Source of the DNA: a virus
IMG/VR virus record: IMGVR_UViG_3300037069_001131
Coordinates: 1-25,575 of that record
DNA: 25,575 bases
Strand: one strand, 5' to 3'
In this document: piece by piece, positions 4,219 to 24,836 of the stretch
Numbering within the stretch: position 1 is the stretch's first letter
How the letters are laid out: every line of letters starts with the position of its first letter
Position numbers and translations under genes: made by a program
Notes under the pieces: model-generated
Seen by the model: only the letters and a program-made list of their open reading frames with translations
Told to the model about the DNA's origin: nothing
Database searches by the model: none

Positions 4219-4445
4219 GGTGTCTCTCTCTCGGTTTGCCGGCTCGTCTCTCAGCGAGTCGGTCACTGCCAGGCACGGACGCAATGGCCGTGCCTGACGG
4301 TGATGGTGAGCGAGAGGGTCGGTGTCACACGGGCAGGTGCGAGCGCGTCAGGCGCAGAAACGGGGCCTCGGACAACCGACGAAAGTACGCGAGCGACAAC
4401 ACACATCGACACGTACCGAAGTACTTGCTCCTCTGTTCAGTTCGT
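4219..4445 (-). promoter_or_regulatory. Long structured 5' leader of the 162-aa gene
   Basis: About 227 nt separate the predicted P3 start (near 4445) from the ATG at 4218, with no gene I can support. The leader contains a perfect 9-bp stem, CAGGCACGG/CCGTGCCTG (4270-4278 with 4288-4296), which extends imperfectly outward. A second imperfect stem of about 8 bp lies near 4240-4258, just upstream of the ribosome binding site. This could be a cis-acting RNA element or an attenuator. I recognise no known riboswitch class. Confidence 0.4.
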
Positions 4446-4460
4446 AGTACGAGTGTACCA
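4445..4460 (-). promoter_or_regulatory. Promoter P3, extended -10 (TGGTACACT)
   Basis: The minus strand reads CTGCG-TGG-TACACT (-10 at 4452-4457), the same extended -10 as P2, and it shares CTGCGTGGTAC with P4. The predicted start is near 4445. A CRP/GlxR-like operator is centred about 63 bp upstream of that start, almost the same spacing as at P1. There is no convincing -35. Confidence 0.58.
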
Positions 4461-4499
4461 CGCAGGCAGAGGAACTGAGGTGCTGTGGGCCTCTTACAG

Positions 4500-4520
4500 G
4501 TGTGATCTACGTCACACTTT
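4500..4520. promoter_or_regulatory. CRP/GlxR-type operator, copy 2
   Basis: TGTGATCTACGTCACA (4501-4516) is identical to copy 1, and identity extends to 21 bp including the flanking bases. The centre (4508.5) is about 56 bp from the -10 of P3, against 55 bp at P1. The constant spacing on the same DNA face supports a real activator or repressor site. It lies between the terminase stop (4562) and P3. Confidence 0.7.
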
Positions 4521-4561
4521 GAGCACACGTATTGACAGCCTGTGGCTGAGTTCCGCGCGAA

Positions 4562-6289
4562 TTACCGCCGAGGGATCATCGGTCCCCGCGACAGCCCGCG
4601 GCCCCGGTTCATGTCCGAGGCGGCTGCCCGAGCCAGGTCACGCGGCTGCTGCCACTGAGGTCGGTTCATGTTCATGCGCCCAGGCACGGTGATGCCGCCC
4701 TTGCCACCGTCACGCAGCCCGAGCAGGCCCTGGGTCAGCGCGTCCACCTGGTCGTCGGCGGTGTCGTTCGGGAAGTTCCGCAGCTCGGAGAGCAGGTCGG
4801 TGACCCACTCGTTGCCAGGGTCCGAGGGGTGCGGCAGGTAGACGTTGCCGCTCTCGATCTCAGGGGTGACGATGCGCGCGCGGGCCACCTTGCCAATGGA
4901 AGCCGTGATCGGCGTCAGGCCCGAGATGTCGTCCTTGAGGGTGTCGATGACCGCGGCACCGTTGGCCGCCTCCTCGATGATGCGCTTGTGCACGAGGTGA
5001 CCGCAGCGCGAGCGCGCCGGGTCGTTGGTGATCGCCCACTGCTTCATCGCCGCGATGGTCTGGGTGAAGGACCAGCGGCCGCGCTGCTGGGCGATGAGGT
5101 AGCGGTTGGCGGCCGAGCGCACCCAGCGTTGGCCGACAACCCAGCCGCCCGTGTCCGGGTGCGTCGACTTGAACGCGCAGTCCCAGCTGTCCAGCCACGT
5201 CCCGCCCACCAGGGCCGAGGGATCGAGGTAGACCACCCGCCCGTCCTCGGTGGCCTTGGACTCGTCCATCGTCCAGAACCGCCACCAGCCCGAGTCGAAG
5301 ATCGCGCCCTTGGCCGGCGCTGGGCGCTGCTGGTACATGGCCGAGAACGTGTAGGTGCCGACCGAGCGGCGCACGTCCTCCCACCGGGACAGGGCCTGGC
5401 CGACCGACTCGTGCACGATGGGCGACAGCAGCGGTGCACCCTCCGGCCGGTCGAGCACGTCGTCGGACTCCGCGAGGGCGGGCAGGCTGATCTTCTCCCA
5501 CTGGCGCGGGTCACCCTCATGCTCGGGGCTGAGCAGACGGCCCACGAAGTCGTCCTCGTGCCAGCGCGTCATGACGACGATGACCAGGTAGGGAGGCTCG
5601 AGACGGGTCAGGGCGACCGAGAGCCACCAGTCCCACAGGTTCTGGCGCATCGTGATCGAGTGCGCCTCCACGAAGTCCTTGATCGGGTCGTCGATGATCA
5701 GGACCCGCGCGCCTCGACCGGTCAGCGAGCCTCGCGTGGAGGTGGCGAACATGCCGCCCTTCTCCTGCGTGGCCCACTTCGCCCCGGCGCCGCCATCGGG
5801 TGCCAGGGCGATGCCCAGGTCCGGGTGCTCCTCGATCGCCACTCGGATCGTCTTGGCCCAGGTGCTGCTCAGGTCGCCGTCGTGGGAGGACAGCACGAAC
5901 TTCCACTCAGGGTGACGGCGCAGGATCCACAGCGGGGTGTAGATCGAGGTGAGTAGGGTCTTGCCGGCACGCGGCGGCATGGAGATGACGATGTGCCGGT
6001 TCTGCCCGCGCTCCACGTCCCGCACGGCCTTGGCGATGCGCGTGCCCAGGTGCTTGATGTGCGGGCGCACCACGAACCCCGGGTCGAGCTCCTTGGCCTG
6101 CAGGTCGGGGCGGGAGGGTATGCCGATGCCGTGCGCGATGCGGTAGGCCCGGGTGATCGAGGCGATGCGGCTGGTCAGCGCACGCACCTCGTCCTCGGTG
6201 GAGGCGTCGGCAGCCGCCGCCCGCAGGGAGTTGATGAGGTCCTGCACCGCCTCCGGGGTGGACGGGATCTCCTCCTCAGTGGTCGGCAT
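4562..6289 (-). CDS. terL: Terminase large subunit (TerL)
   Basis: This 575-residue protein is the motor that pumps phage DNA into the prohead and cuts it to length. Residues 104-111 (MPPRAGKT) are Walker A and VLIIDD (196-201) is Walker B. MTRWHEDDF (240-248) is the coupling segment typical of this family. The C-terminal RNase H-like nuclease shows its acidic residues at D370 (SWDCAF), E439/E440 and D513/D516 (DDQVDALTQG). The length is complete for the family. The start ATG lies inside the end of the small-subunit gene (14-bp overlap). A much longer in-frame reading upstream is only a shadow of terS. The C-terminus ends in an Arg/Met-rich tail. It is the last gene of a ten-gene unit. Confidence 0.96.
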   Translation of the reverse strand: MPTTEEEIPSTPEAVQDLINSLRAAAADASTEDEVRALTSRIASITRAYRIAHGIGIPSRPDLQAKELDPGFVVRPHIKHLGTRIAKAVRDVERGQNRHIVISMPPRAGKTLLTSIYTPLWILRRHPEWKFVLSSHDGDLSSTWAKTIRVAIEEHPDLGIALAPDGGAGAKWATQEKGGMFATSTRGSLTGRGARVLIIDDPIKDFVEAHSITMRQNLWDWWLSVALTRLEPPYLVIVVMTRWHEDDFVGRLLSPEHEGDPRQWEKISLPALAESDDVLDRPEGAPLLSPIVHESVGQALSRWEDVRRSVGTYTFSAMYQQRPAPAKGAIFDSGWWRFWTMDESKATEDGRVVYLDPSALVGGTWLDSWDCAFKSTHPDTGGWVVGQRWVRSAANRYLIAQQRGRWSFTQTIAAMKQWAITNDPARSRCGHLVHKRIIEEAANGAAVIDTLKDDISGLTPITASIGKVARARIVTPEIESGNVYLPHPSDPGNEWVTDLLSELRNFPNDTADDQVDALTQGLLGLRDGGKGGITVPGRMNMNRPQWQQPRDLARAAASDMNRGRGLSRGPMIPRR

Positions 6290-6788
6290 CTGAGTCTCTC
6301 TCCGCATCGGTCTCGTCGTGCCGGCTGATGACCTCGCCCTTGAGCACCACTGCCTCCAGCTCGTTGAGCGCGGCCTCCATCTCGGCCTGCACGCTGACCT
6401 TGAGGTTGATCCTCGTGGGTGCGTCCAGCCCGTTGAGCCGGGAGCGGCGCTGGCTGATCGAGATGAAGGTGGCGATGGCCTTCTCGTCGCCGTTGAGCAC
6501 CTTGGTCCAGATCGCCGCCTGGGCGCGGTCGAGCCGCGCGTTCTCCACCGCGCGCATCTCGTCGACAGCGCGGGTCTCCGCGATGTCGAGCGAGCGCCCA
6601 ACCATGTCGATGGCGGCCGACTTGGAGATGCCCAGGCGCTCACCGACTGCCTCGTAGGACAGCCCGGCGAGCACCAGGGACAACGCCTCGGCGCGCCTGG
6701 CCTGATGAGTCTCCCGGCGACGCTTGGCCGCTGGGGTCTCATCCATGACCTTCACGACCTCATCGCCTAGGTCACTGCGCCGCGCCAT
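6276..6788 (-). CDS. terS: Terminase small subunit (TerS), HTH-type
   Basis: This 170-residue protein lies directly upstream of terL, in the usual order. It has a helix-turn-helix at about residues 43-64 (LSYEAVGERLGISKSAAIDMV) that would bind the packaging site on phage DNA. A helical oligomerisation segment follows (AVDEMRAVENARLDRAQAAI). An Asp/Glu-rich C-terminus would recruit TerL. A repeated KR/RR-rich segment (residues 22-32) precedes the HTH. Its 5' end overlaps the upstream ParB-like gene by 17 bp and its 3' end overlaps terL by 14 bp. Assignment rests on gene order and the HTH, as the family is poorly conserved. Confidence 0.85.
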   Translation of the reverse strand: MARRSDLGDEVVKVMDETPAAKRRRETHQARRAEALSLVLAGLSYEAVGERLGISKSAAIDMVGRSLDIAETRAVDEMRAVENARLDRAQAAIWTKVLNGDEKAIATFISISQRRSRLNGLDAPTRINLKVSVQAEMEAALNELEAVVLKGEVISRHDETDAERDSDADH

Positions 6789-7428
6789 CTGCGTAGCCGT
6801 CGTCGCCGTGGGCGAGGTCGTCCAGGTCGTCCGCGGTCAGGCCGGGCAGCGAGCGGGTACGCACCTCGAAGGAGTGGAAGCACGAGGGGCACACGACCGT
6901 GGTGGTGTGCACGTTGGCCTTGTCGGCCTCGGTGACCGTGGAGACCTTGCGAGAGGCGTCGTCGACGTTCTGCTGGGTCACCGCGTCGCTGATCTGGCCC
7001 ACCTCGAGGTCGATGTCCGGGAAGAACGTGGTGAGCAGGCCCTGCTCGAACTCGCGCAGCTCCATCACCAGCTGCTCGTGGTCCCACGTCGTCATCTCGG
7101 AGGTCTTGTTGTCGACCAGGCGGTACTCGCGGGCCTTGTTCTCCGGCAGCGAGGACACGTAGACCGGGACCTGCGTCCAGCCCAGCTTCTTGAGGGCCTG
7201 CAGCCGGGTGTGCCCGACGATGATCACGTTGTCCTTGTCGACCGTGATCGGCTGCTGGTAGCCGTACCGCTCGATGGAGGTGGCCACCGCGTCGACGGCC
7301 TCCTGCGGGATGCGCCGAGGGTTGCGGAAGTAGGGCTTGATGTCCTCGATGGGCAGCGTCTTGGTCGGCGGCAGCGTCACCTGAGGCGGTGTGGGCCGGT
7401 CGAAGGACTCCTGCGCGGCGGTGCTCAT
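6772..7428 (-). CDS. ParB-like nuclease-fold protein with C-terminal zinc ribbon, paralog A
   Basis: This 218-residue protein has an N-terminal ParB/Srx-type domain. IEDIKPYFRNPRRI (27-40) is the first motif, YGYQQPITVD (55-64) follows, and the VGHTR signature (71-75) marks the nucleotide-binding loop. The known families of this fold bind CTP/ATP or act as nucleases. After a helical middle with TTWDHEQL and FFPDID, the protein ends in a half zinc ribbon, C180-x2-C183-x-H185. It is a paralog of the next gene upstream, sharing the NPRRI, YGY-QP and GHTR motifs and the CP-x-CFH ribbon. The stop lies inside terS. Translation is coupled to paralog B by ATGA. A link to packaging or modification is inferred from position. 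Confidence 0.88.
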   Translation of the reverse strand: MSTAAQESFDRPTPPQVTLPPTKTLPIEDIKPYFRNPRRIPQEAVDAVATSIERYGYQQPITVDKDNVIIVGHTRLQALKKLGWTQVPVYVSSLPENKAREYRLVDNKTSEMTTWDHEQLVMELREFEQGLLTTFFPDIDLEVGQISDAVTQQNVDDASRKVSTVTEADKANVHTTTVVCPSCFHSFEVRTRSLPGLTADDLDDLAHGDDGYADGAAQ

Positions 7429-8033
7429 GCGGTCTGAACCTCCAGCTTTCCGGCCATGACGGCCTCCTTGGTCACTTCCATCTCCCAGGTATGGAAGCAG
7501 GTCGGGCAGATGAACTCGGCCGTTCGGTCGACCTCATCCCAGGCGCTGGTGTCAGGGCCCTGATCTTCTGCCAACGAGGAGTCTGGCCCCTCGTCACGGA
7601 TGCTGCTGACCTCGGGGAAGAACGCCCGCATCAGCGAGAGGTTGAGCCCCTCGAGCTCGGCACTCAGGTGCTCGAAGTCCCAGGAGGTGAACTCACCGGA
7701 GCGGTTGTCCAGGACGCGCAGCTCCTTGACCTGGCCCGCGGTCAGGCCGGCCGCCACCACGACCGGGGCCTCCTTGACGCCCATCCGTCGCAGCGCGGTG
7801 TAGCGCGTGTGGCCGATGATGATGACGTTGCCCTCGTCCACCACGATCGGCTGGGAGTAGCCGTACTCGGTGATCGAGGTGACCACGGCGTTGACCGCCT
7901 CGTCGTTGATCCGGCGAGGGTTGCGCCAGTACGGCAGGATCGCGTCCAGGCTCATCGTCACCGGGTCGGGGAACGAGGGCGCGGCGGGCGCGGCGGGCGC
8001 AGCCTTCTTAGAACGTGGCTGGGACGTGCTCAT
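7425..8033 (-). CDS. ParB-like nuclease-fold protein with C-terminal zinc ribbon, paralog B
   Basis: This 202-residue protein has an Ala/Pro-rich N-terminus (residues 10-22) and then the ParB-like domain: DAILPYWRNPRRI (30-42), YGYSQPIVVD (58-67) and IGHTR (73-77). SWDFEHL and FFPEV match paralog A position by position. An acidic linker (148-172) leads to C176-x2-C179-x-H181, the same CP-x-CFH ribbon as in A. The two genes are adjacent and very similar in layout, so they probably arose by tandem duplication. The start overlaps the IbrB-like gene by 26 bp. Whether A and B work as a heterodimer is unknown. Confidence 0.88.
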   Translation of the reverse strand: MSTSQPRSKKAAPAAPAAPSFPDPVTMSLDAILPYWRNPRRINDEAVNAVVTSITEYGYSQPIVVDEGNVIIIGHTRYTALRRMGVKEAPVVVAAGLTAGQVKELRVLDNRSGEFTSWDFEHLSAELEGLNLSLMRAFFPEVSSIRDEGPDSSLAEDQGPDTSAWDEVDRTAEFICPTCFHTWEMEVTKEAVMAGKLEVQTA

Positions 8034-8736
8034 CCGGGTGCTCCCTCTTGTAGTTGGCCTTGGCCTTGAGCTGGCTGGTGGTCAGGACCGGCTGGCTGTA
8101 CTCCACGTCGGCGTACAGCTTGGAGTAGCCGGTGATGTGCTTGAGCCGGGCCAGCTCCTCGGCCTCCATGCCGAGCTTGGCGCAGATCGACTCGTCCGTC
8201 TCGCCCTCGGTGAGCAGCTGGAACACCATGTTCCCCATGCCCGCGATGGAGTGCCGGCCACGCGCGCGGTTGTGCCGCACGGTGGAGGCCATCCGGTCCG
8301 CGATGGGCTTGTCGAGGACCACCACCGGCAGGTAACCGCGGGTGCTGTCGTAGATGTCCTGGTAGCGACGCATGGTCGTGTAGCGGTGGAAGCCGTCGAC
8401 GATGATGTAGCGGCCCTCACCGCCCGCGGCCTCCGGGTCGTAGATCGCCACCACCGGCTGGGTGTAGCCGTCGCTGCTGATCGAGGTGTGCAGCAGGCGC
8501 ATCTCGTGGTGGGCCACGCTGTTCGGGTTGTAGTCGTTGGCCTGCACCCGGTCGATGTGGATCCACTGCACCCGCGCCACCGGCGCCACGCCCGCGAAGG
8601 GCAGCCGAGCCTCGGCGTCGCTGATGGCCTTGTTGAAGGCGGTCACCGCCTCGTCCACCGCCGGGTCGAAGTCACCGTGGGCCTGCTGGGCGCGGTTGGC
8701 GGAGACCGCGGTGCCCTCGGTCTTGGCGGCGCTCAT
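8008..8736 (-). CDS. IbrB-like ParB-domain protein
   Basis: This 242-residue protein has the ParB-like motifs in IbrB style: DYNPNSVAHHEMRLL (68-82), DGYTQPVVAIYD (89-100) and VDGFHR (113-118). These are followed by an Arg/His-rich helix (STVRHNRARGRHS) and an HTH-like segment about 170-195. IbrB and its relative YbdM in E. coli are encoded next to the PP-loop protein IbrA/YbdN and are known as a regulatory pair. Here the IbrA-like gene is two genes upstream with a papain-like gene between. It differs clearly from the two ParB-zinc-ribbon paralogs downstream and has no zinc ribbon. The start overlaps the papain-like gene as ATGA. Confidence 0.85.
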   Translation of the reverse strand: MSAAKTEGTAVSANRAQQAHGDFDPAVDEAVTAFNKAISDAEARLPFAGVAPVARVQWIHIDRVQANDYNPNSVAHHEMRLLHTSISSDGYTQPVVAIYDPEAAGGEGRYIIVDGFHRYTTMRRYQDIYDSTRGYLPVVVLDKPIADRMASTVRHNRARGRHSIAGMGNMVFQLLTEGETDESICAKLGMEAEELARLKHITGYSKLYADVEYSQPVLTTSQLKAKANYKREHPDEHVPATF

Positions 8737-9437
8737 GCGGTCGCCTGGAAGTGCGCGTCGCCGCCGTCAGCCAGCAGCGTGTCGAGGTCGGCGCGGGCGA
8801 TCCAGAAGTCACCGAAGGAGCCCCACCAGCAGCGCCCGAGCACCCAGTCGCGGTGGTGGTCGTAGCCGTGCACCGCGTACTGGTGCCCGCCCGCCACACC
8901 GCCTCCGAGGTGCACGCGGCCGTCAGCGTCCTGGTTGAACATGTCGTTGTCCCAGCGGGTGCCCACGCTGATGACCCGGCCCTCGACGATGTTCTGGACC
9001 ACCTCGTCCGCCCCGCCGAACAGCCAGCGGTAGGCCCCGCCCAGGCCCTTCTCGACGGCCACCTTGCACGAGGACAGGCCGTCGCTGCCGGTGTCGTCGG
9101 GCGGGTAGGTGCCGGGGAACGGGTCGATCTGGGTCTCGCGCTCGTACATTGCCTCCGCGGTGGACAGATCGAGGACGCGGTAGGGCTTGCGGTTGCCGGT
9201 GGCGTTGAGCTGCACGCACTTGGCCACGGCGGTGCAGTTGCCGGTGGTCTGGTTGGGCAGCGGGCTCGGGTCGTAGATCGGGATGAGCGTCGGCTTCCAC
9301 GTCGCCTTGTTGATGGGCGTGGCCATCGCGAAGGCGCGGCTGCGCTCGTCGTGGACCTTGTGCCGGCCCAGGCGCACGTCGTTGGCGGCGAACTGGTGAA
9401 CGTCCAGGCCTGCCGGCGTCTGTGGTGTCTCAGACAT
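8733..9437 (-). CDS. Papain-fold (C1-like) cysteine peptidase or derivative
   Basis: This 234-residue protein shows the marks of the papain fold. PNQTTGNCTAVAKC holds Q63 (oxyanion hole) and C68 (nucleophile). DTGSDGLSSCKVAVEKG (115-131) is a family-like segment. GGHQYAVHGYD (183-193) holds the catalytic H185. RCWWGSFGDFWI (202-213) aligns with the NSWG-WG-G-FWI region, but the usual Asn is Cys (C203). There is no signal peptide, so it would act in the cytoplasm or in particles. It sits between the IbrA- and IbrB-like genes with 4-bp and 8-bp overlaps. A processing protease for capsid or partner proteins is possible, as is a catalytically altered fold. Confidence 0.75.
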   Translation of the reverse strand: MSETPQTPAGLDVHQFAANDVRLGRHKVHDERSRAFAMATPINKATWKPTLIPIYDPSPLPNQTTGNCTAVAKCVQLNATGNRKPYRVLDLSTAEAMYERETQIDPFPGTYPPDDTGSDGLSSCKVAVEKGLGGAYRWLFGGADEVVQNIVEGRVISVGTRWDNDMFNQDADGRVHLGGGVAGGHQYAVHGYDHHRDWVLGRCWWGSFGDFWIARADLDTLLADGGDAHFQATA

Positions 9438-10707
9438 TGCGTCCTTCTTCCTCTCGAGCGATTGACTCCCACAGGCCCTTTGCCTGCATGTCCTTCTTCC
9501 AGTTGTCCCACTCGCGCTTCTTGCCGGGGTGCTTCTGGGTGCTGATCCAGGTATTGAGATTGCTGCCGTACACGTCGTTGAACATCACCGCGTAAAGCAC
9601 CTGGCGCACAATCTCACGCCGCGACACATAAGGCAGGACGTGCTCGGCGTTCGCCCACATCTTGTAGAACTTGACCCGGTTGTCGTCGCCCTCGACAAGG
9701 TGCTGAATGAGGTAGTCGAGATACTCGACCCACGTCGAGAACATGTAGGGCAGCTTGCCGCCGATGAACATGTCATAGACGTCCTCACCCACCTTGTTGA
9801 AGGTGGCCACGCCCGGGAAGCGAGCAACGGCGCGCTCCCACGTCTCAGGCTCGATCTCCTGCAGCGTGTGGAGGGCGCCCTGGCTGGACTCGTGGTGGAA
9901 CGAGGAGACGCGCATCGAGCGGGTGCGAATGCCGCGCTGGAACATCGCGTCGTAGTAGACGTTGTAGTCCCAGTCGTGGTCGTGAATGGCCTTCCACACG
10001 TCCCGGTAGGACCAGTCATAGACCGGGTGGAAAAGGTACGGGCCCTTGCCGTCCTTTCCACCGCCGCTGCACCACGTCGCCCATTTGTACGAGGGCACGC
10101 TGGTCATGAAAACGCGGCGGGTCGGGCTTTCCTCGCAGCGCATTCCCGTCAGGATCGCGCCGCCGTCCTTCTCGTTCATCGCGTGCAGGACTTCCTTGAA
10201 GCGGTCGATCTGCTCGCGCTTCTTGCCCTTGCCCTTGAAGAACGGGTTCTCCTTGATGGAGTCGTGCTCCTTGGGGCGCAGCCACGACTCGTCGTCGAGG
10301 TTCACGTCCCAGCAGTGCGTCCACTGCTCGGTGTGGCTGGTGGCGTTGAAGAGCCGGAACGGGATCTGGTACCAGTCCATGCTCACCTCGTCCCGGTCAG
10401 CCAGCCGGCGCAGGTAGTCACGGGTGGCCTGGTACTCCGCCTCCTGGTCGAGGAAGTGCACCTTGAGCGGCAGCTCACCTCGCTCGCGGGCCACGATCAG
10501 GGCCAGCTCGGTGACCACCGTGGAGTCCTTGCCACCCGAGGAGGACACCGACACATGGCCGTCGAACTCCTCGAAGATCCAGCGGATCCGATCCAGGGCC
10601 GCGTCGAACACGGTGCCGGGCAGGAAGTAGTGCGGGCGGGCCTTGCCCGTGAACAGAGGGTCCAGCTGCCTGCTGGCCTTCGGAGTGGCGATCGTCTGAC
10701 TAGCCAC
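9430..10707 (-). CDS. IbrA-like PP-loop ATPase (PAPS reductase-like, DUF3440 type)
   Basis: This 425-residue protein has an N-terminal adenine-nucleotide alpha-hydrolase domain with the PP-loop SGGKDS at residues 57-62. The next segment, VHFLDQEAEYQAT, is typical of the PAPS-reductase/DndC-like group. It has several cysteines (WTHCWD, GMRCEESPTRR, TWCSGGG) that could bind metal or sulfur. The long C-terminal part (YLFHPVYDWSYRDVWKAI onward) matches the layout of the IbrA/YbdN family rather than true PAPS reductases, which are about 240 residues. The reaction is unknown. Adenylation-driven sulfur or nucleotide transfer is the family expectation. An IbrB-like partner is encoded nearby. Overlaps of 8 bp at both ends. 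Confidence 0.85.
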   Translation of the reverse strand: MASQTIATPKASRQLDPLFTGKARPHYFLPGTVFDAALDRIRWIFEEFDGHVSVSSSGGKDSTVVTELALIVARERGELPLKVHFLDQEAEYQATRDYLRRLADRDEVSMDWYQIPFRLFNATSHTEQWTHCWDVNLDDESWLRPKEHDSIKENPFFKGKGKKREQIDRFKEVLHAMNEKDGGAILTGMRCEESPTRRVFMTSVPSYKWATWCSGGGKDGKGPYLFHPVYDWSYRDVWKAIHDHDWDYNVYYDAMFQRGIRTRSMRVSSFHHESSQGALHTLQEIEPETWERAVARFPGVATFNKVGEDVYDMFIGGKLPYMFSTWVEYLDYLIQHLVEGDDNRVKFYKMWANAEHVLPYVSRREIVRQVLYAVMFNDVYGSNLNTWISTQKHPGKKREWDNWKKDMQAKGLWESIAREEEGRNV

Positions 10708-11641
10708 GGCACACCGTCACAATGAACTCCCCAAGGCGGTAGCGGGTGGGCGAGCCGGGCAGCGCCTTGGCCGCCTCCCGGCTGGCATCGGAGCGCACGT
10801 AGAGCTCGTCCTGGTCGGCTTCGTAGTCGGGCAGGTAACCCCTGCGGTAGTTCATCAACACGATGGCACCTCCCGGGGCCAGCAGCTGCGGCATGGCCGA
10901 GACGAACTTCGGGTCGACGTAGGACACGCTGCCGAACAGCGAGGCGATCAGGTCGAAGCGTTGGCCGCGCAGCTGCTCGAAGCCCTCCTCGAAGGTGGCC
11001 GGCACGAGGTTGGAGACCTCGGGGTGCTTGCGGACCAGCTCGTTGAGCATGCCCTGGCTCGGGTCGATGCCCGTGTACAGGCTCGACGGGGTGATCTTCA
11101 TGTCCAGCAGCAGCCCGGTGCCGCAGCCCACGTCGAGGGTCTTGGGCGCGTAGGCGCCGAACAGCGACACGATCAGCTTGCGGATCGCCTCGTTCTCCAG
11201 GTGGCAGGCCGGGTTGTCGTAGCGGTCGTCGTATGCCGTGGCCATCGCGTCGTAGATGCTGAACCGCCCGCTTCTGGTGTGCACCGCGTCCTGACGACCG
11301 TAGGTGATCGAGGTGTCCGCCTGGTTGATGATGATCGTCTCTTCCAGGCCGGCGCCCATCGTCCACCACTTCTTGTCGCCCACGGTCAGGTAGACGTTGA
11401 CCCGGGAGTAGAACTTGCCCGGCTCACCGAAGGTACGGATGACGCGCACCGCGCGCAGGAAGTCCTCCTCGCCCAGGGTCTTGCCGCGCACCACGTAGGA
11501 GTGCGGGGCGTCTGGCATGGTCGAGGCGAAGCGCCACGCCAGGCTCGGCGCGAGCTCGGTCCACCAGTCGAGGTCAGCCTGAGTGACCATCGCGAGCCCG
11601 CGGGTGGCTGCTCCCTGCAGGACGGTCTGAGGAAGGGTCAC
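10700..11641 (-). CDS. Class I SAM-dependent methyltransferase with extra N-terminal domain
   Basis: Residues 168-300 form a Rossmann methyltransferase: motif I LDVGCGTG (169-176), an acidic residue after strand 2 in YTGIDPS (189-195), then FDLIASLFGS and LLAPGGAIVLMNY. The first about 110 residues are a separate domain (HSYVVRGKTLGEEDFL, RVNVYLTVGDKKWW, TIIINQA) that I cannot name. It is beta-rich and may recognise the substrate. No DPPY/NPPY or Pro-Cys motif is seen, so it is not a standard N6-adenine, N4- or C5-cytosine DNA methylase. It more likely methylates a small molecule, a sugar or an already modified base. ATGA overlap with the glycosyltransferase-like gene upstream. Confidence 0.85.
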   Translation of the reverse strand: MTLPQTVLQGAATRGLAMVTQADLDWWTELAPSLAWRFASTMPDAPHSYVVRGKTLGEEDFLRAVRVIRTFGEPGKFYSRVNVYLTVGDKKWWTMGAGLEETIIINQADTSITYGRQDAVHTRSGRFSIYDAMATAYDDRYDNPACHLENEAIRKLIVSLFGAYAPKTLDVGCGTGLLLDMKITPSSLYTGIDPSQGMLNELVRKHPEVSNLVPATFEEGFEQLRGQRFDLIASLFGSVSYVDPKFVSAMPQLLAPGGAIVLMNYRRGYLPDYEADQDELYVRSDASREAAKALPGSPTRYRLGEFIVTVCRG

Positions 11642-12201
11642 GGCACGAAGCTCCTGCTCACTCGGGGAGGACGACGAGGGTTGATCGCTGAGGGGCCCGG
11701 ACGGTGGTCGACGAGGTTCGGGACCTCGATCCAGTATCGGCGACCCGTGGCCTTGAAGTAGTCAGCCATCGCGAAGTCGTACCCAGTCGGGTGCTCACCG
11801 CTGACGTGCGGCTCCCAGTCGGGCAGGTATGCCGCAAGGTCGGCGGCCAGGCCTGCCGGGGCGTACCAGCACAGGTTGCCCAGGAAGGAGCGGCCCGGCT
11901 CCCAGCGACTGCCCACCTCCAGGTCGGCCTTGCGCATCGAGAAGAACTGGACCACCTCGTCCGGCTTGGACTCGATGACCGCCTCGACCTTGTCCCGCCA
12001 GTCGGTGGTCAGCAGGATGTCGTCCTCGAGGAAGATCGCGGCGTCGTCCCCGGCCGCGCGCAGGTTGCGCACGAAGGTGTCGTACGCGTTGTGGTTCTCG
12101 TCCCAGGTGATCTCGAGGTCGGGCACGGCCTCCTTGACGGCCTTGACGGCCTTGAGCCGGCGCGCGTCCCAGGGCACCGCCGCCATCAGGACCCTGGTCA
12201 T
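11638..12201 (-). CDS. Glycosyltransferase-like protein (GT-A fold)
   Basis: This 187-residue protein starts MTRVLMAAVPWDARRLKAV. At residues 56-62 it has IFLEDDI, an acidic E-D-D motif after a hydrophobic strand. This matches the metal-binding position of GT-A glycosyltransferases of the GT25/procollagen-like type. It continues with VVQFFSMRKADLEVG and a TGYDFAMADYFKATGRRYWI segment, then ends in a Pro/Arg-rich tail. It is short for a full enzyme, so substrate and activity are uncertain. The start overlaps the zinc-ribbon gene as ATGA and the stop overlaps the methyltransferase as ATGA. Its position suggests a shared pathway with the methyltransferase and IbrA-like protein. Confidence 0.7.
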   Translation of the reverse strand: MTRVLMAAVPWDARRLKAVKAVKEAVPDLEITWDENHNAYDTFVRNLRAAGDDAAIFLEDDILLTTDWRDKVEAVIESKPDEVVQFFSMRKADLEVGSRWEPGRSFLGNLCWYAPAGLAADLAAYLPDWEPHVSGEHPTGYDFAMADYFKATGRRYWIEVPNLVDHRPGPSAINPRRPPRVSRSFVP

Positions 12202-12494
12202 GCCCCACCACCGGCTGCCGCGATGTGCTCGACCACTTCGGGGTGGCCCTCCAGCCAGTCCTCCATGACCTGCGGGTAGAGGTCCATCTCCACGCGCAGG
12301 CGGATCAGCTCGTACTCGGCCTCGTGCATCTCCTTGAGCTTGCGACGGGTCAGGCGCATGACGTTCTGGGCGAAGTTGTTGCAGGTGGTGCACCGGTTGC
12401 GCCGGTTCCCGATCCGCGCCTTGCCTCCCAGACCCCTCATCCGGCACTCAGGACACGGCAGAGCCGGGGTGTCCAGGGCGGTTGAGGGAGCCAC
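12198..12494 (-). CDS. Zinc-ribbon protein, first gene of the terminase unit (98 aa)
   Basis: The protein has a four-cysteine zinc ribbon, CPECRMRGL then RNRCTTCNNF (residues about 14-40). It is followed by a charged helical region (RLTRRKLKEMHEAEYELIRLRVEMDLYP), so it may bind nucleic acid through the ribbon and dimerise through the helix. The only start that keeps the whole ribbon is GTG at 12494, because an in-frame TGA lies just upstream. The predicted -10 (12502-12507) ends only 7 bp before this GTG, so the message may be leaderless. It opens the overlapping unit that ends with terL. A regulatory role is possible but unproven. Confidence 0.8.
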   Translation of the reverse strand: MAPSTALDTPALPCPECRMRGLGGKARIGNRRNRCTTCNNFAQNVMRLTRRKLKEMHEAEYELIRLRVEMDLYPQVMEDWLEGHPEVVEHIAAAGGGA

Positions 12495-12507
12495 AGGCGC
12501 GAGCGTA
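12495..12507 (-). promoter_or_regulatory. Promoter P5 with possible leaderless start
   Basis: The minus strand carries TACGCT at 12502-12507, the same -10 variant as P4, in the context GTAGTACGCTCG. The expected transcription start is near 12495, directly at the GTG start codon (12494). No ribosome binding site can fit between. A weak TTGCGC lies 19 bp upstream. Leaderless mRNAs are common in actinobacteria. Confidence 0.45.
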
Positions 12508-12541
12508 CTACGCCCTCAGGATCGGAGCGCAAGGTCGGCCG

Positions 12542-12574
12542 GTTCTATTGCGACAGCCCTGTTCTCAATAGAAC
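12542..12574. repeat. Inverted repeat with TTCTATTG/CAATAGAA arms
   Basis: A perfect 9-bp inverted repeat, GTTCTATTG (12542-12550) and CAATAGAAC (12566-12574), is separated by 15 bp. It lies about 45-80 bp upstream of the predicted P5 start. The core TTCTATT also occurs in both arms of the larger palindrome at 12612-12680, giving four copies in about 130 bp. It could be an operator for a phage regulator. Confidence 0.6.
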
Positions 12575-12611
12575 TCGGACGCAGCGGCTGCAAGCCTCTG
12601 ACCTGCGCTTT

Positions 12612-12680
12612 CTCTCTATCTCTATTTCTATTACAGGGGACCCTATAGGGGTCCCCTGTAATAGAAATAGACATAGAGAG
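12612..12680. repeat. 69-bp near-perfect palindrome with 32-bp arms
   Basis: Arms 12612-12643 and 12649-12680 are inverted copies with one mismatch (12620/12672) around a 5-bp centre, TATAG. The core is GC-rich (ACAGGGGACCC/GGGTCCCCTGT) and the outer 21 bp of each arm are AT-rich (TATTTCTATT type) in a genome that is otherwise strongly GC-rich. As RNA it would form a very long hairpin in either direction. It lies in a 294-bp non-coding gap between a terminator and promoter P5. Possible roles are a bidirectional terminator, protein-binding site, replication origin element or RNase III substrate. Confidence 0.85.
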
Positions 12681-12715
12681 CGAGGTGGAGAGAGGCGAGC
12701 CGAGCTGCAGACAGA

Positions 12716-12755
12716 CGAAGACCCCGGACCCTCACCTGGGTTTCCGGGGTCTTCG
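12716..12755. terminator. Strong terminator hairpin
   Basis: A perfect 12-bp stem, CGAAGACCCCGG (12716-12727) with CCGGGGTCTTCG (12744-12755), encloses a loop that can add an inner ACCC/GGGT stem. It follows the last gene (stop at 12789) of the long unit running from about 22984. GGGGTCTT-type hairpins are typical terminators in actinobacteriophages. The symmetric arms allow function in both directions. Confidence 0.78.
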
Positions 12756-12788
12756 CAGGCTGTGACTGCCCTGTGGAAGGTAGCCAGT

Positions 12789-13022
12789 CTAGCCGTGGCC
12801 GCGGACAGCGCGCCGCTCCATGTGGTCGTTGATCAGCAGGGCGACCCCGGCGCTGATGCCGGTGCCCTTGGCGATGGCCTGAGGGTCCACGTCCATGCGG
12901 ATCGCTGCCTGCCCTCGCAGACGCAGCAGGGCGTCCATGAGCGCCTTCTCGTCATGCTCCTGCCCGGAGATGCCGCGCAGCACCGTCGTGAGGTCCTGGG
13001 CCTGATGCAGGTTGAGCGCCAT
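12789..13022 (-). CDS. Small helical protein of unknown function (77 aa)
   Basis: The protein is mostly helical by eye, with LHQAQDLTTVLRGISG at the N-terminus and LMDALLRLRGQAAIRMDV in the middle. A final segment, AIAKGTGISAGVALLINDHM, could be a small helical hairpin. It ends in a basic tail, RRAVRGHG. There are no cysteines. No family is recognised. Its ATG shares one base with the stop of the upstream gene (TGATG). It is the last gene before the strong hairpin at 12716-12755, so it closes the long middle unit. Confidence 0.7.
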   Translation of the reverse strand: MALNLHQAQDLTTVLRGISGQEHDEKALMDALLRLRGQAAIRMDVDPQAIAKGTGISAGVALLINDHMERRAVRGHG

Positions 13023-13324
13023 CAGCGCACCTCCCGCTTCGGGCCGGTGGCGTTGACCACGGCCTGGCAGTGGCGGCCGATCAGCGCTGGCCAGTCCAGC
13101 GCCGGGTTCTCCACCACCAGCTCCATCGTGGCCTTGCCCAGCCTCTCCGCGAGGTCACCGCAGGCTCGGGTCTCCCCGGCCTCCGCGAGGGCCCTGATGG
13201 CCGTCGTGGTGTCCACGAGGGAACGCGCAGCTGGCCGCTCCAGGTCCTCCGCGAGGGTGAACGCCTTGACCACCTTGGTCAGGCGCATCGTCCGGTTGTC
13301 CAGCACGAGGTCGACGATCTTCAC
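13022..13324 (-). CDS. Protein of unknown function (100 aa)
   Basis: The sequence is helical and charged, beginning MKIVDLVLDNRTMRLTKVVKAF and containing LERPAARSLVDTTTAIRALAEAGE. Two cysteines (ACGDL, GRHCQ) are far apart. No motif points to a function. The start is GTG at 13324, overlapping the upstream stop as GTGA, and the stop overlaps the next gene as TGATG. The pattern of overlaps, not homology, is the main reason to call it real. Confidence 0.7.
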   Translation of the reverse strand: MKIVDLVLDNRTMRLTKVVKAFTLAEDLERPAARSLVDTTTAIRALAEAGETRACGDLAERLGKATMELVVENPALDWPALIGRHCQAVVNATGPKREVR

Positions 13325-21565: not shown

Positions 21566-22450
21566 CTAGTTGGAAGCCGCGGCGGGCGCCGCAGCCTTCT
21601 TGGTGGTGGCGGTGGCAGGTGCCTGCGCACCGCCGATGCCCAGCACCCTCGACAGCTGCCCGAGGGAGGTGGGACTCCTGCGCCCGAGAATGGGCGGGAT
21701 CTTGCCGCGCAGCTGGTACGGCAGGCGGGCCTTGGTGCGGTAGCCCATGTGCGAGCCGAAGCGCACGATGTGGTTGGCCGGTGAGAGAGTGTCGTCTCCC
21801 ATCGCGTCCGGGTTCTCCTCGAAGTCCGTGTAGACGATGTAGTCGGGCGCGGCGAGCACGATGCTCAGTGCGCCCTTCTGCACGTCGGGGACCCTCGTGG
21901 TGAAGCCGGTGTTCTCGTCCTCGGTGATCTTGGTCTGCGCCGTCATCACGACGTGCATGGGCTTGTCGCGCTGGGCGTCGGCCAGGCCGAACCAGAACGT
22001 CGCGGTGTCGGTCATCACGTCCAGGCTCTGGCCCCACGTCCTGATGTCAGCCGGCGCGGTGCCGGTCTTGATCTCGCGCACGGCGGTCTCGTCGTGCCCG
22101 AGCAGGAAGCGCATGGTCATCTTCTGCACCGAGGTCATCGAGTCGATCACCACGGCGGCGTAGTCGTGGTTGCCCGAGTTGAGGTACCAGAACAGGTCGT
22201 CGAACGCCGTGATCGACGGCGGCCGGACGATCTTGATGTTCTTGGCCCACGGTGCGCCTCGGAAGGAGCGGGTGCCCTTCTCGCCCGTGAAGTCGATGAA
22301 CAGGGTCTTGCCGCACTCCGCGATGGTCGAGGCCAGCACGGTCTTGCCGCTTCCCTGCGGGCCGTGGATCAGCCAGCGTCCCGCGTCGTCCTTCTGCTCG
22401 TCGCTGCCGGTGGCCGTCAGGCCCGCGGGCAGTGAGGTGGTGGTGGTCAT
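21566..22450 (-). CDS. Sak4-like RecA-fold ATPase (single-strand annealing recombinase)
   Basis: This 294-residue ATPase has Walker A GPQGSGKT (30-37) and Walker B AAVVIDS (98-104). Later motifs include HVVMTAQTKI and a conserved VPDVQKGAL segment. The size and order match phage Sak4/AAA_24 proteins, which promote single-strand annealing together with an SSB. The SSB gene follows 20 bp downstream. The C-terminus is Ala/Thr/Lys-rich and low complexity (APATATTKKAAAPAAA). The start is ATG at 22450. It probably acts in recombination-dependent replication or repair. Confidence 0.88.
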   Translation of the reverse strand: MTTTTSLPAGLTATGSDEQKDDAGRWLIHGPQGSGKTVLASTIAECGKTLFIDFTGEKGTRSFRGAPWAKNIKIVRPPSITAFDDLFWYLNSGNHDYAAVVIDSMTSVQKMTMRFLLGHDETAVREIKTGTAPADIRTWGQSLDVMTDTATFWFGLADAQRDKPMHVVMTAQTKITEDENTGFTTRVPDVQKGALSIVLAAPDYIVYTDFEENPDAMGDDTLSPANHIVRFGSHMGYRTKARLPYQLRGKIPPILGRRSPTSLGQLSRVLGIGGAQAPATATTKKAAAPAAASN

Positions 22451-23095: not shown

Positions 23096-23296
23096 TCAAC
23101 TGCCGGTGAGAGAGCGGGCGACGCCGACCGTGAACGTCGCCTCGTCCTCATCCGGACGCCACGCAGCACCACGCCGCACACCGCCGTTGACCTGCTCAAC
23201 ACCGACCCGTGTGCCCGAGGCGTCGGTGACCACCGCCGCCGTCATCGCGCGCCGTGCTCGCCGGTTGACCACACCGAGGGCGATGATCCGCTTCAC
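23096..23296 (-). CDS. Small basic protein of unknown function (66 aa)
   Basis: The 66 residues begin MKRIIALGVVNRRARRAMTA and continue with beta-like VGVEQVNGGVRRGA and TFTVGVARSLTGS. Arg-rich and probably nucleic-acid-compatible, but with no recognisable motif. The start is GTG at 23296, overlapping the stop of the nuclease gene as GTGA. P4 lies just downstream, so it is the last gene of the previous unit. There is moderate doubt because it is short and rests only on overlap. Confidence 0.6.
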   Translation of the reverse strand: MKRIIALGVVNRRARRAMTAAVVTDASGTRVGVEQVNGGVRRGAAWRPDEDEATFTVGVARSLTGS

Positions 23297-24609
23297 TGGC
23301 GCACCTCCAGCCGGAAGTCGGCCAGGTCGTACTCGCCGTCACTGCCGCCGATGAGCTGAGCCCGGCACAGGCCGGCGAAGTCGCACCACCGGCAGTTGCT
23401 GCTCAGGTTCCGAGCCGCCTCGCCGCTGACCTCTCCACGGTTGCGGGAGTTCACCATGTCCACGCTGGTGTCCACCGCGGCCCGCAGATGGGACTTCACG
23501 ATGTTGGAGTTCAGCGGTGAGCGGGTGCGCTGGAACCAGATGGAGCGGGCCACCGGCGAGCTCAGCCGCTCGATGATCGACTCCTCGGGCTGATAGATCC
23601 CGCCCTCCTTGAACCGGCGCGCGGGCACCGGCTCACCAGCCTCCTTGGCGGCTGCCTCCGCGTCCTTCTCGGCCTTGGTCTGCGGCAGCATCGCTCCCTG
23701 CCAGGGCAGCCCGTTACCGTCCGGCCCGCTGGCCCACTCGAGGTAGGTGCGCAGGTCCGAGGCTGAGATGGTCGGCTCGCCCAGCCGGGTGGCCAGCTTC
23801 CCCGAGGTGGTCAGCTGCGGAGGCCGCGGGGCCACCGAGCACACCCGGTCATATGCCGTGGCGCGGATAGGGCCCAGGCCCCACTTCGCCACGTCAGGTG
23901 CCGCGCCCCAGGCATAGAGCTGCAGCTGGCTGTCCATCATGTCGTCGACGGTGGTCTGCGTGCTCAGGGACTTGTGCGCCTTGTGGTCACGAGCGACCAC
24001 GAGGTTGCGACGCACGTCCTGGAACACTTCGTCGATGTAGCCCACGAGCACCGTGTCCGGGTCGAGGACGTTCCCGTTCTTGTCGGCGGGCAGCGAGGGC
24101 AGCACCCGGCGCCAGGCCATCTCGAAGGCCAGCGGCCGCTCGTGCTCGATGTCGTCGGCCCACATCTTGGCCCACTCCTCGTCCACGTAGCGCAGGCCGG
24201 TGTGCAGGTCCTCCCAACCCAGCCGCTCCTTCCACACGTCCTGCACCCGCGGGGTCAGCGCGTCGTACCACTCGATCGCTGCCCCGAAAATGGCGCTGCG
24301 CGGAGCATCGGCCTTGACCGATATCTCCGGCCCGCCGTCGACCGTGCGGATGGTCTTGGGCGTCCACTGCAGGCTCTCGTGCTTGCGGCCCCGCACGAGG
24401 GAGTCCGCCGCTCGCAGCGCGTGCCACCACAGCCCGAACTCGAGCTCGACCCGCACGTCCTCCGGGTCCACCTTCGAGAGCCGCTTGACGCTGCTGTAGA
24501 ACCACCGCTGAGGGCACGCCCGGTGCGAGGTGAGCTGGCTGTACGAAGCCCAGTGCTCGGTCGTGCGCTCGCCCTCCTTGACCTCCGGCTGTGCCGGTGC
24601 GGGGCTCAT
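23293..24609 (-). CDS. RecB/Cas4-like PD-(D/E)xK exonuclease with 4Fe-4S site
   Basis: This 438-residue protein fits the phage RecB/Cas4 nuclease family. YSQLTSHRACPQRW (23-36) gives C32, GLWWHA (59-64) has the motif I His, and VGYIDEV (189-195) has D193. VVARDHK (204-210) has D208 and K210. MMDSQLQLYAW (224-234) is the QxxxY motif. The C-terminal NCRWCDFAGLC has C406, C409 and C415, which with C32 would hold an iron-sulfur cluster as in Cas4/AddB. It is longer than Cas4, with an insertion of about 80 residues. Expected activity is exonuclease for recombination or end processing. The ATG at 24609 overlaps the upstream gene (ATGA). Confidence 0.9.
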   Translation of the reverse strand: MSPAPAQPEVKEGERTTEHWASYSQLTSHRACPQRWFYSSVKRLSKVDPEDVRVELEFGLWWHALRAADSLVRGRKHESLQWTPKTIRTVDGGPEISVKADAPRSAIFGAAIEWYDALTPRVQDVWKERLGWEDLHTGLRYVDEEWAKMWADDIEHERPLAFEMAWRRVLPSLPADKNGNVLDPDTVLVGYIDEVFQDVRRNLVVARDHKAHKSLSTQTTVDDMMDSQLQLYAWGAAPDVAKWGLGPIRATAYDRVCSVAPRPPQLTTSGKLATRLGEPTISASDLRTYLEWASGPDGNGLPWQGAMLPQTKAEKDAEAAAKEAGEPVPARRFKEGGIYQPEESIIERLSSPVARSIWFQRTRSPLNSNIVKSHLRAAVDTSVDMVNSRNRGEVSGEAARNLSSNCRWCDFAGLCRAQLIGGSDGEYDLADFRLEVRQ

Positions 24610-24836
24610 GCCTTGCCCGCCCAGCGCGAGGGCGCGGTGACCGGGCGCGGGCCGGGGTTCTTGATCCCCATCATCGCATTCCAGCCCGCCCAGCACTTGT
24701 CCAGCGTGGCCTCGCTGACGCCCGGCCAGGTCGAGTGGACCGGCACGGTCGCAGGCTGCCACCACCGCTGCCACCACGGGCGGGCGTCGGCGGGCAGGAT
24801 CTGCTTGCACAGGATGCACCGCTTGGGCTCAGCCAT
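24606..24836 (-). CDS. Small protein with Cys pair (76 aa)
   Basis: The protein starts MAEPKRCILCKQILPADARP, a C-x2-C knuckle, followed by a Trp-rich segment (WWQRWWQPATVPVHSTWPG). The later DKCWAGW may provide a third ligand. The C-terminus is basic. No family is recognised. A half zinc ribbon plus a Trp-rich surface suggests a protein- or DNA-contact role. The ATG at 24836 overlaps the upstream gene by 8 bp, and the stop overlaps the nuclease start (ATGA), so they are likely co-translated. Confidence 0.75.
   Translation of the reverse strand: MAEPKRCILCKQILPADARPWWQRWWQPATVPVHSTWPGVSEATLDKCWAGWNAMMGIKNPGPRPVTAPSRWAGKA

Follow-up and report, generated by a model that had tools for sequence, protein, structure and literature searches.

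A likely DNA-modification cassette directly upstream of terminase in a Rogerhendrixvirus-like phage

A soil-phage relative carries, directly upstream of its DNA-packaging motor, a conserved set of enzymes that most likely chemically decorates the phage's own DNA, and related phages carry quite different DNA-modifying enzymes at the same position, which suggests that DNA modification and DNA packaging are linked. This is inferred from gene position and sequence alone, and we place the probability of this reading at roughly 0.6. The core of the set is a pair of genes, ibrA and ibrB, coding for a PP-loop ATPase without a conserved cysteine and a ParB/Srx-fold protein, respectively.

Organization and conservation of the block

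The DNA analyzed here (the window) is the 25,575-nucleotide stretch at positions 1 to 25,575 of IMG/VR record IMGVR_UViG_3300037069_001131. A preliminary description of it proposed that ten overlapping genes, from a zinc ribbon protein to the terminase large subunit (TerL), form one modification-packaging unit. The ten genes are present as described, all on the minus strand, and this observation is confirmed. The features are as follows, with database matches from Pfam and PHROGs.

12612..12680 (-): leader hairpin in the gap upstream of the operon
12198..12494 (-): Zn-ribbon-like small protein (98 aa; GTG start at 12494), orthologue of Hendrix gp153 (64% identity)
11638..12201 (-): predicted minimal GT-A glycosyltransferase (187 aa; ATG start at 12201), orthologue of Hendrix gp154; glucosyltransferase PHROG phrog_854
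10700..11641 (-): methyltransferase (313 aa; GTG start at 11641), an N-terminal domain of ~95 aa ("MTN") followed by a class I SAM methyltransferase
9430..10707 (-): IbrA-type PP-loop ATP pyrophosphatase (425 aa; GTG start at 10707); PF01507 (PAPS_reduct) and PF11922 (DUF3440) above cut-off, and phrog_2302 (E 1.7e-75)
8733..9437 (-): papain-like peptidase (234 aa; ATG start at 9437); peptidase PHROG phrog_16701
8008..8736 (-): IbrB, ParB/Srx-fold protein (242 aa; ATG start at 8736), partner of IbrA, motif DGFHR; phrog_2159
7425..8033 (-): ParB-like protein 2 (202 aa; ATG start at 8033), of a family also fused to DNA methylases; PF02195, phrog_620 and phrog_498
6772..7428 (-): ParB-like protein 3 (218 aa; ATG start at 7428), paralogue of ParB 2
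6276..6788 (-): HTH_23-like protein (170 aa; ATG start at 6788) in the place of a small terminase; PHROG label "RNase E" (phrog_645)
4562..6289 (-): TerL (575 aa; ATG start at 6289); PF03237 and PF17289 (Terminase_6N and 6C) above cut-off, 62% identical to Hendrix gp5

The nine junctions overlap by 4, 4, 8, 8, 4, 26, 4, 17, and 14 bp, so the 1 to 26 bp given in the preliminary description is right in substance; the HTH protein was not named there. However, overlap itself is uninformative in this lineage, as 34 of 41 junctions from gp5/gp6 to gp45/gp46 of the relative Hendrix also overlap, and we therefore rejected overlap as proof of a unit; the proposed co-translation with terminase remains a supposition. 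What is more than chance is the conserved order. Orthologues of the block lie in the same order in the Microbacterium Rogerhendrixvirus phages Hendrix, Leaf, and Rasputia (genomes of ~95 to 98 kb), and the order is conserved in 15 IMG/VR metagenomic contigs, with a constant core of IbrA-IbrB-ParB-ParB-HTH-TerL and variable glycosyltransferase (GT), GNAT, and methyltransferase (MT) genes upstream. The three cultured phages lack the papain gene and carry extra GTs and a GNAT acyltransferase. In this operon the papain gene is found only in the window and in one other contig (L017), between IbrA and IbrB; it is a lineage-specific insertion and probably not part of the unit, and its relatives in other actinophages are labeled cysteine protease, peptidase, or lysin. 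The block is thus not one ten-gene unit.

The IbrA-IbrB pair and its neighbors

We examined viral and bacterial loci encoding relatives of the pair, taking the best 80 of 308 viral and the best 80 of 198 bacterial relatives; the viral totals before redundancy removal leave out ten window, Hendrix-group, or duplicate loci. Among nonredundant viral IbrB loci with sufficient flanking sequence, IbrA lies directly upstream of IbrB in 44 of 44 (42 by rule and 2 by eye), a terminase lies within 6 kb downstream in 28 of 30, and a GT- or MT-type gene lies upstream in 24 of 26. The terminases are of several Pfam types, although we note that the TerL models were built from downstream ORFs of these same loci, with one to several members per cluster checked in Pfam and PHROGs. 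IbrA is also directly upstream in 78 of 80 bacterial-genome loci. We divided these 80, after inspection of the table, into 17 phage-like and 63 bare loci; no MT/GT-type gene was recognized in the 63 bare loci, and bacterial pairs have an SNF2-like helicase upstream in 34 of 57 (29 by rule and 5 overlapping).

The pair is not restricted to the neighborhood of terminases. It lies in early/replication regions in Streptococcus phage CHPC1062 and Mycobacterium phage Gaia, as well as in the 63 bare bacterial loci. Accessory genes independent of terminase had been named beforehand as evidence against the proposed unit, and this condition is therefore met in part.

IbrA-IbrB is present in over two hundred cultured-phage records and in bacteria of several phyla, yet it is filed as sulfur metabolism or as a prophage co-activator. 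The first of these, an auxiliary metabolic gene for sulfate assimilation, follows the Pfam name and common annotation practice in phage genomes (PMC10434257; PMC12418951), but is very unlikely. Among 88 viral IbrA homologues, the PP-loop is kept in 87 and the GxRxxE-type motif in 81, corresponding to the PP-loop and GxRxxES-type ATP-binding motifs of PAPS reductase (CysH). In contrast, the C-terminal ECG(x)H motif with the catalytic cysteine of CysH is present in 0 of 88, no cysteine column is kept by more than 38 of 88, and the window protein scores far below the NCBIfam cysH cut-off (23.4 versus 165.1 bits); the strict pairing with IbrB also argues against this role. Dnd phosphorothioation likewise combines a PP-loop enzyme (DndC) with a ParB-like protein (DndB), but was rejected on similar grounds: the score is 19.6 versus a curated DndC cut-off of 290.4 bits, the cysteines used for Fe-S and sulfur transfer (PMC10853773) have no conserved counterparts in IbrA, and no DndA/D/E-like gene was recognized in the block. 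PADLOC gave only weak DndC/SspD matches for the window IbrA (BrxP and DndC for a bacterial IbrA), a weak match for the methyltransferase, and Type II methyltransferase matches for ParB 2 and ParB 3. A search of PDB sequences with the IbrA profile was uninformative, returning FAD synthase and PAPS reductase at E values of 0.003 to 0.03, and ribosomal proteins.

The second annotation, in which depositors call the pair co-activators of prophage gene expression (the IbrA and IbrB names come from an E. coli prophage), raises the possibility that the ParB-like and IbrA-IbrB proteins are regulators or packaging/partition factors, and that the GT/MT genes are unrelated morons. ParB-like genes do sit beside terminase in many actinophages, but the GT/MT-type genes upstream in 24 of 26 loci, together with the retained ATP pyrophosphatase motifs of IbrA, make this unlikely.

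Exchange of cassettes between ParB and terminase

The main clue to function comes from two phage lineages with homologous TerL proteins, in which the slot between ParB and terminase holds either IbrA-IbrB or another DNA-modification set. First, among relatives of the window TerL, MementoMori (55% identical) carries a Tet_JBP-like gene; Kozie (52%) carries a Tet_JBP-like gene, an amino acid:DNA transferase (ADDT), and an FAD oxidoreductase; and Megan (50%) carries QueC, GTP cyclohydrolase I, and genes labeled TGT, QueD, and QueE. The Tet_JBP matches of MementoMori and Kozie are below the Pfam cut-off (30.7 and 25.0 versus 34.9 bits). Second, in Bclasvirinae with 55 to 67% identical TerL, Gadjet and Audrey hold IbrA-IbrB where Magpie and Acadian hold Tet_JBP relatives, Magpie also carrying a relative of ADDT. 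The slot is not always filled in this way, as two TerL relatives examined, FuzzBuster and OSmaximus, show no annotated modification gene there, and positional exchange is circumstantial evidence.

These sets are of recognized DNA-modification families. The full preQ0 set, which in Megan sits between ParB and terminase, goes with dPreQ0 in the DNA of mycobacteriophage Rosebush (PMC6884629), and the 7-deazaguanine systems (DpdA/FolE/QueC-E in phages, and bacterial Dpd with the ParB-like DpdB; PMC6884629, PMC12839542) resemble the block in the ParB-type partner of Dpd, but their chemistry differs. No FolE, QueC, QueD, QueE, or TGT was recognized in the ten proteins or in ten further ORFs of the window, which is a 25.6-kb fragment. 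TET/JBP-ADDT base hypermodification, reportedly predicted by Iyer et al. (2013), is represented by relatives in the same slot, but none of its enzymes is in this block. Literature searches on IbrA/IbrB, on PAPS reductase or cysH together with ParB, and on hypermodification together with terminase, judged largely from titles and abstracts, listed no description of this module and no demonstrated function of the pair, although a prediction by Iyer et al. (2013), who are reported to predict lysidine-like pyrimidine modification in phages, cannot be excluded. The statement in the preliminary description that no pathway with exactly this gene set is known thus holds for the searches made, but needs the qualification that other DNA-modification sets occupy the same slot.

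Taken together, the interpretation offered in the preliminary description, a base hypermodification pathway joined to packaging, is partly supported: DNA modification is the best reading of a conserved cassette joined to ParB genes and terminase, whereas packaging that selects modified DNA remains a hypothesis. The gene order, the protein families, the IbrA-IbrB pairing, and the exchange of cassettes are shown by sequence; the activities that follow, including DNA binding by the ParB-type proteins, are inferred. We suggest that the block is a late operon whose enzymes modify phage DNA before or during packaging. In this view, IbrA activates a base (in DNA, or a precursor) by adenylation so that a nucleophile can be attached, rather than thiolating it, a reaction that is disfavored; IbrB would be its obligate partner on DNA; the small-molecule-type methyltransferase and the GT-A glycosyltransferase (and in relatives the extra GTs and GNAT acyltransferase) would then decorate the new group; and ParB 2 and ParB 3 would bind or target the DNA next to the terminase. 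The likely benefit is resistance of virion DNA to host restriction. This gives IbrA-IbrB a testable function, points to cultured phages such as Hendrix, Gadjet, and Laroye in which to look, and makes the question of whether packaging prefers modified DNA directly testable. A broader possibility, which is not excluded but which we consider unlikely, is that tailed phages keep a modification-packaging locus composed of ParB-family gene(s), an exchangeable hypermodification cassette (IbrA-IbrB with GT/MT, TET/JBP-ADDT, or preQ0), and then terminase, with the ParB-family proteins reading or spreading the modification and handing only modified DNA to the terminase. Packaging itself would then discriminate phage from host DNA, and IbrA-IbrB would make a DNA modification of a kind not yet described.

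Structural neighbors of the block proteins and noncoding features

The similarities of the individual proteins leave room for other substrates. IbrB profiles match ParB (4umk) and the serine kinases SbnI and SerK, and its DGFHR motif is SerK/SbnI-like; ParB 2 and ParB 3 are above the Pfam cut-off for ParB_N, and IbrB is below it (19.7 versus 26.3 bits). PP-loop relatives of IbrA act on small molecules and tRNA, with weak NCBIfam matches to CysD for the window protein, and to CysD, TilS, and TtcA for a bacterial IbrA. The pair could therefore act on nucleotides, tRNA, or another small molecule in an anti-defense or metabolic role, with GT, MT, and GNAT decorating that product, but we regard this as unlikely given the exchange with DNA-modification sets, the fusion of the ParB 2/3 family to DNA methylases, and the SNF2-like helicase partner of bacterial pairs.

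The closest structural neighbors of the methyltransferase and the glycosyltransferase act on small molecules, glycans, or proteins, not DNA. The AlphaFold2 model of the glycosyltransferase (pLDDT 92) matches GT-A structures (Z 14.2 and rmsd 3.1 over 172 aligned residues for GnT-I, 1foa) and resembles TarP and other polymer GTs. The methyltransferase neighbors are mostly small-molecule or protein enzymes and include NodS/TylM1-like sugar methyltransferases; in the aligned rows they cover model residues 126 to 313. The MTN domain could not be placed, as stand-alone copies gave no Pfam (one copy) or PHROG (two copies) family match apart from one nonsignificant Pfam line. These neighbors are compatible with GT, MTase, and GNAT altering the host surface (teichoic acid or glycans, as in superinfection exclusion), with only IbrA-IbrB concerning DNA. 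However, this is unlikely, because these genes sit with IbrA-IbrB across phages with different types of terminase and none of MT/GT type was recognized in the bare bacterial loci.

An Rfam search gave no hit in the window, no tRNA was found, and no sigma-70-like promoter was found in positions 4300 to 13100. The leader hairpin has 32-nt arms that are 97% complementary and a 5-nt loop; the region 12500 to 12788 has an RNA fold z of -9.3, and a palindrome at the same place in a related locus (L007) has changed but still complementary bases.

Gene organization and relatives

In the 25,575-base IMG/VR virus record, ten minus-strand genes run from 12494 to 4562, with successive overlaps of 4, 4, 8, 8, 4, 26, 4, 17 and 14 bp, and code for a Zn-ribbon protein, a GT-like protein, a methyltransferase, an IbrA-type PP-loop protein, a papain-like peptidase, three ParB-like proteins (the first being IbrB), an HTH protein, and TerL. 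The preliminary description, which reported this run of overlapping genes from zinc ribbon to terminase, is thus correct in its observation. However, overlap alone says little, as 34 of 41 later junctions in the left arm of Microbacterium phage Hendrix overlap too. Features of the window referred to here are:

4562-12494 (minus strand), the ten overlapping genes
8733-9437 (minus strand), papain-like peptidase gene between IbrA and IbrB
10703-11641 (minus strand), methyltransferase, with an N-terminal domain at residues ~20-115
12612-12680, hairpin with 32-nt arms in the gap of about 300 bases preceding the first gene
313-1332, 21566-22450 and 23293-24819, ATP-dependent DNA ligase, Sak4-like annealing protein and exonuclease (PHROG matches)

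Nine of the ten genes have one-to-one relatives in Hendrix in the same order (gp153, Zn; gp154, GT; gp156, MTase; gp158, IbrA; gp1-3, ParB; gp4, HTH; gp5, TerL), the Hendrix record simply being opened between gp158 and gp1. Hendrix is circularly permuted, consistent with headful packaging (PMC7302621), and it also has genes with the DNA ligase, Sak4-like and exonuclease labels. Hendrix adds a second GT and a GNAT acyltransferase, and Leaf and Rasputia carry four GT-type genes plus GNAT and MTase. Fifteen IMG/VR contigs with the same type of TerL (our loci L006-L012, L016-L019, L021-L023 and L092) show IbrA, IbrB, ParB, ParB, HTH, and TerL in this order, so that a constant core is preceded by a changing set of decorating enzymes. 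The papain-like gene is present only in the window and in L017 (37-1086); its relatives in other actinophages are labelled cysteine protease or lysin. A palindrome near-identical to the window hairpin, with changes on both arms, is present in L007 (1160-1212), and hairpins of unrelated sequence lie at the same place in L006 (~1072) and Hendrix (L003; ~8255), but none was found in four other contigs examined (L008, L011, L004 and L005).

The IbrA-IbrB pair and its neighbors

Using IbrB as bait, the best 80 of 308 viral relatives were kept, 53 of which remained after removal of those 90% identical. Of the 44 of these with sufficient room, IbrA lies directly upstream in 42 by rule and in the other two by eye, the rule having been misled by long stop-to-stop frames; in bacterial genomes IbrA is directly upstream in 78 of 80. 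In cultured phages, IbrA and IbrB matches number 215 and 218 records, with the same counts for the main genera. IbrA keeps the PP-loop (87 of 88), but no cysteine is conserved, and the ECG motif of PAPS reductases is absent in 88 of 88. The IbrB profile finds ParB, SbnI, and SerK structures. We infer from these patterns that IbrA is an ATP pyrophosphatase that probably adenylates its target, and that sulfur transfer by a protein cysteine is unlikely. We note that PAPS reductase genes of phages are reported as sulfur-assimilation auxiliary genes (e.g., PMC10434257, PMC12418951); were those proteins IbrA-type, the label would be wrong.

Of 26 nonredundant viral loci with 5 kb upstream, 24 carry a GT- or MT-type gene within 6 kb, and of 30 with 6 kb downstream, 28 carry a TerL, the exceptions being loci L048 and L055. 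The TerLs are of different Pfam types (Terminase_3, Terminase_6, TerL_ATPase/nuclease), so the neighborhood has been kept or rebuilt across lineages. The GT is confidently predicted to have a GT-A fold. The MTase joins a class I domain, with neighbors such as NodS and TylM1, to an N-terminal domain of ~95 residues (motifs WRFAK, PH.Y, WTMG, and IINRA) that in other phages is a separate gene in the same neighborhood (loci L096, L100, L102 and L103); the stand-alone copies scanned match no Pfam or PHROG family.

Exchange of genes between ParB and TerL

In cultured phages with a TerL homologous to that of the window (by blastp), the genes between ParB and TerL differ in kind. In MementoMori (TerL 55% identical) the order is ParB, ParB, a Tet_JBP-like protein, a TerS-labelled gene, and TerL; the Tet_JBP-like protein (gp2; locus L198, 642-1595) is labelled queuine tRNA-ribosyltransferase, probably a mislabel, as its only Pfam match is Tet_JBP (E 2e-7, below cut-off). 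Kozie (52%), considered only from the Tet_JBP-like gene onward, has this gene followed by an amino acid:DNA transferase (ADDT; PF18724, E 1e-22), an FAD oxidoreductase, a small gene, and TerL. Megan (50%) has ParB, two genes labelled TGT, QueC, QueD, QueE, GTP cyclohydrolase I, and TerL; Pfam confirmed QueC and GTP cyclohydrolase I, but did not confirm the TGT label for the one tested. In Teamocil, ParB, a GT, and UDP-glucose dehydrogenase are followed by further genes to the record end, and TerL is gp3 in that record.

A second lineage repeats this pattern. Among mycobacteriophages with 55-67% identical TerL, Gadjet and Audrey hold ParB, IbrA, IbrB, and TerL, whereas Magpie and Acadian hold a related ParB, a Tet_JBP relative (46-49% identical to MementoMori gp2 and Kozie gp1 for Magpie, 42-47% for Acadian), in Magpie also a distant ADDT relative, and a gene labelled adenylate kinase before TerL. 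Laroye has ParB, IbrA, IbrB, MTase, HTH, and TerL. A full preQ0 set goes with dPreQ0 in Rosebush DNA (PMC6884629). Genes of known DNA-modification families and IbrA-IbrB thus occupy the same place in two lineages, which is our main reason for reading IbrA-IbrB as DNA modification, although the Tet_JBP scores are below Pfam's cut-off, and FuzzBuster and OSmaximus have related TerLs without a recognized modification gene at this position.

The interpretation in the preliminary description is therefore partly supported: context favors DNA modification, but neither a single ten-gene unit nor selection of modified DNA by packaging is shown, even though it has been suggested generally that modifications may act in packaging (PMC7824862). 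The gene orders, the IbrA-IbrB pairing, and the exchange at the ParB-TerL position are seen directly in the sequences, whereas DNA modification and its chemistry are inferred from sequence and context alone. On present evidence we regard this as probably a phage DNA-modification locus, other examples of which are known, but differing in an as yet unassigned chemistry centered on IbrA-IbrB.

Other occurrences of IbrA-IbrB and ParB relatives

The pair is not confined to the vicinity of terminase. It sits away from terminase in Streptococcus phage CHPC1062 and Mycobacterium phage Gaia, and in 63 bacterial loci in which no MT, GT, or ParB 2/3 genes were recognized and with one TerL-type hit; in Flavobacterium phage FCV-1 the pair is reversed in order and lies after TerL. 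Nonetheless, there are further pointers to DNA. The second and third ParB-like proteins (ParB 2/3) belong to a family often fused to DNA methylases (phrog_498, and by annotation), and ParB-superfamily proteins also work in Dpd and Dnd systems (PMC12839542, PMC10853773). Bacterial IbrA-IbrB pairs have an SNF2-like helicase upstream in 34 of 57 loci with room (29 by rule, and 5 with longer overlap). This helicase-IbrA-IbrB module (L129, L164 and others among bacterial loci L128-L190, and L193 and L194), mostly without recognized phage genes, looks like a separate DNA-directed system. In one Helicobacter genome (locus L176, 9611-10903), a C5-cytosine DNA methylase gene directly follows IbrB.
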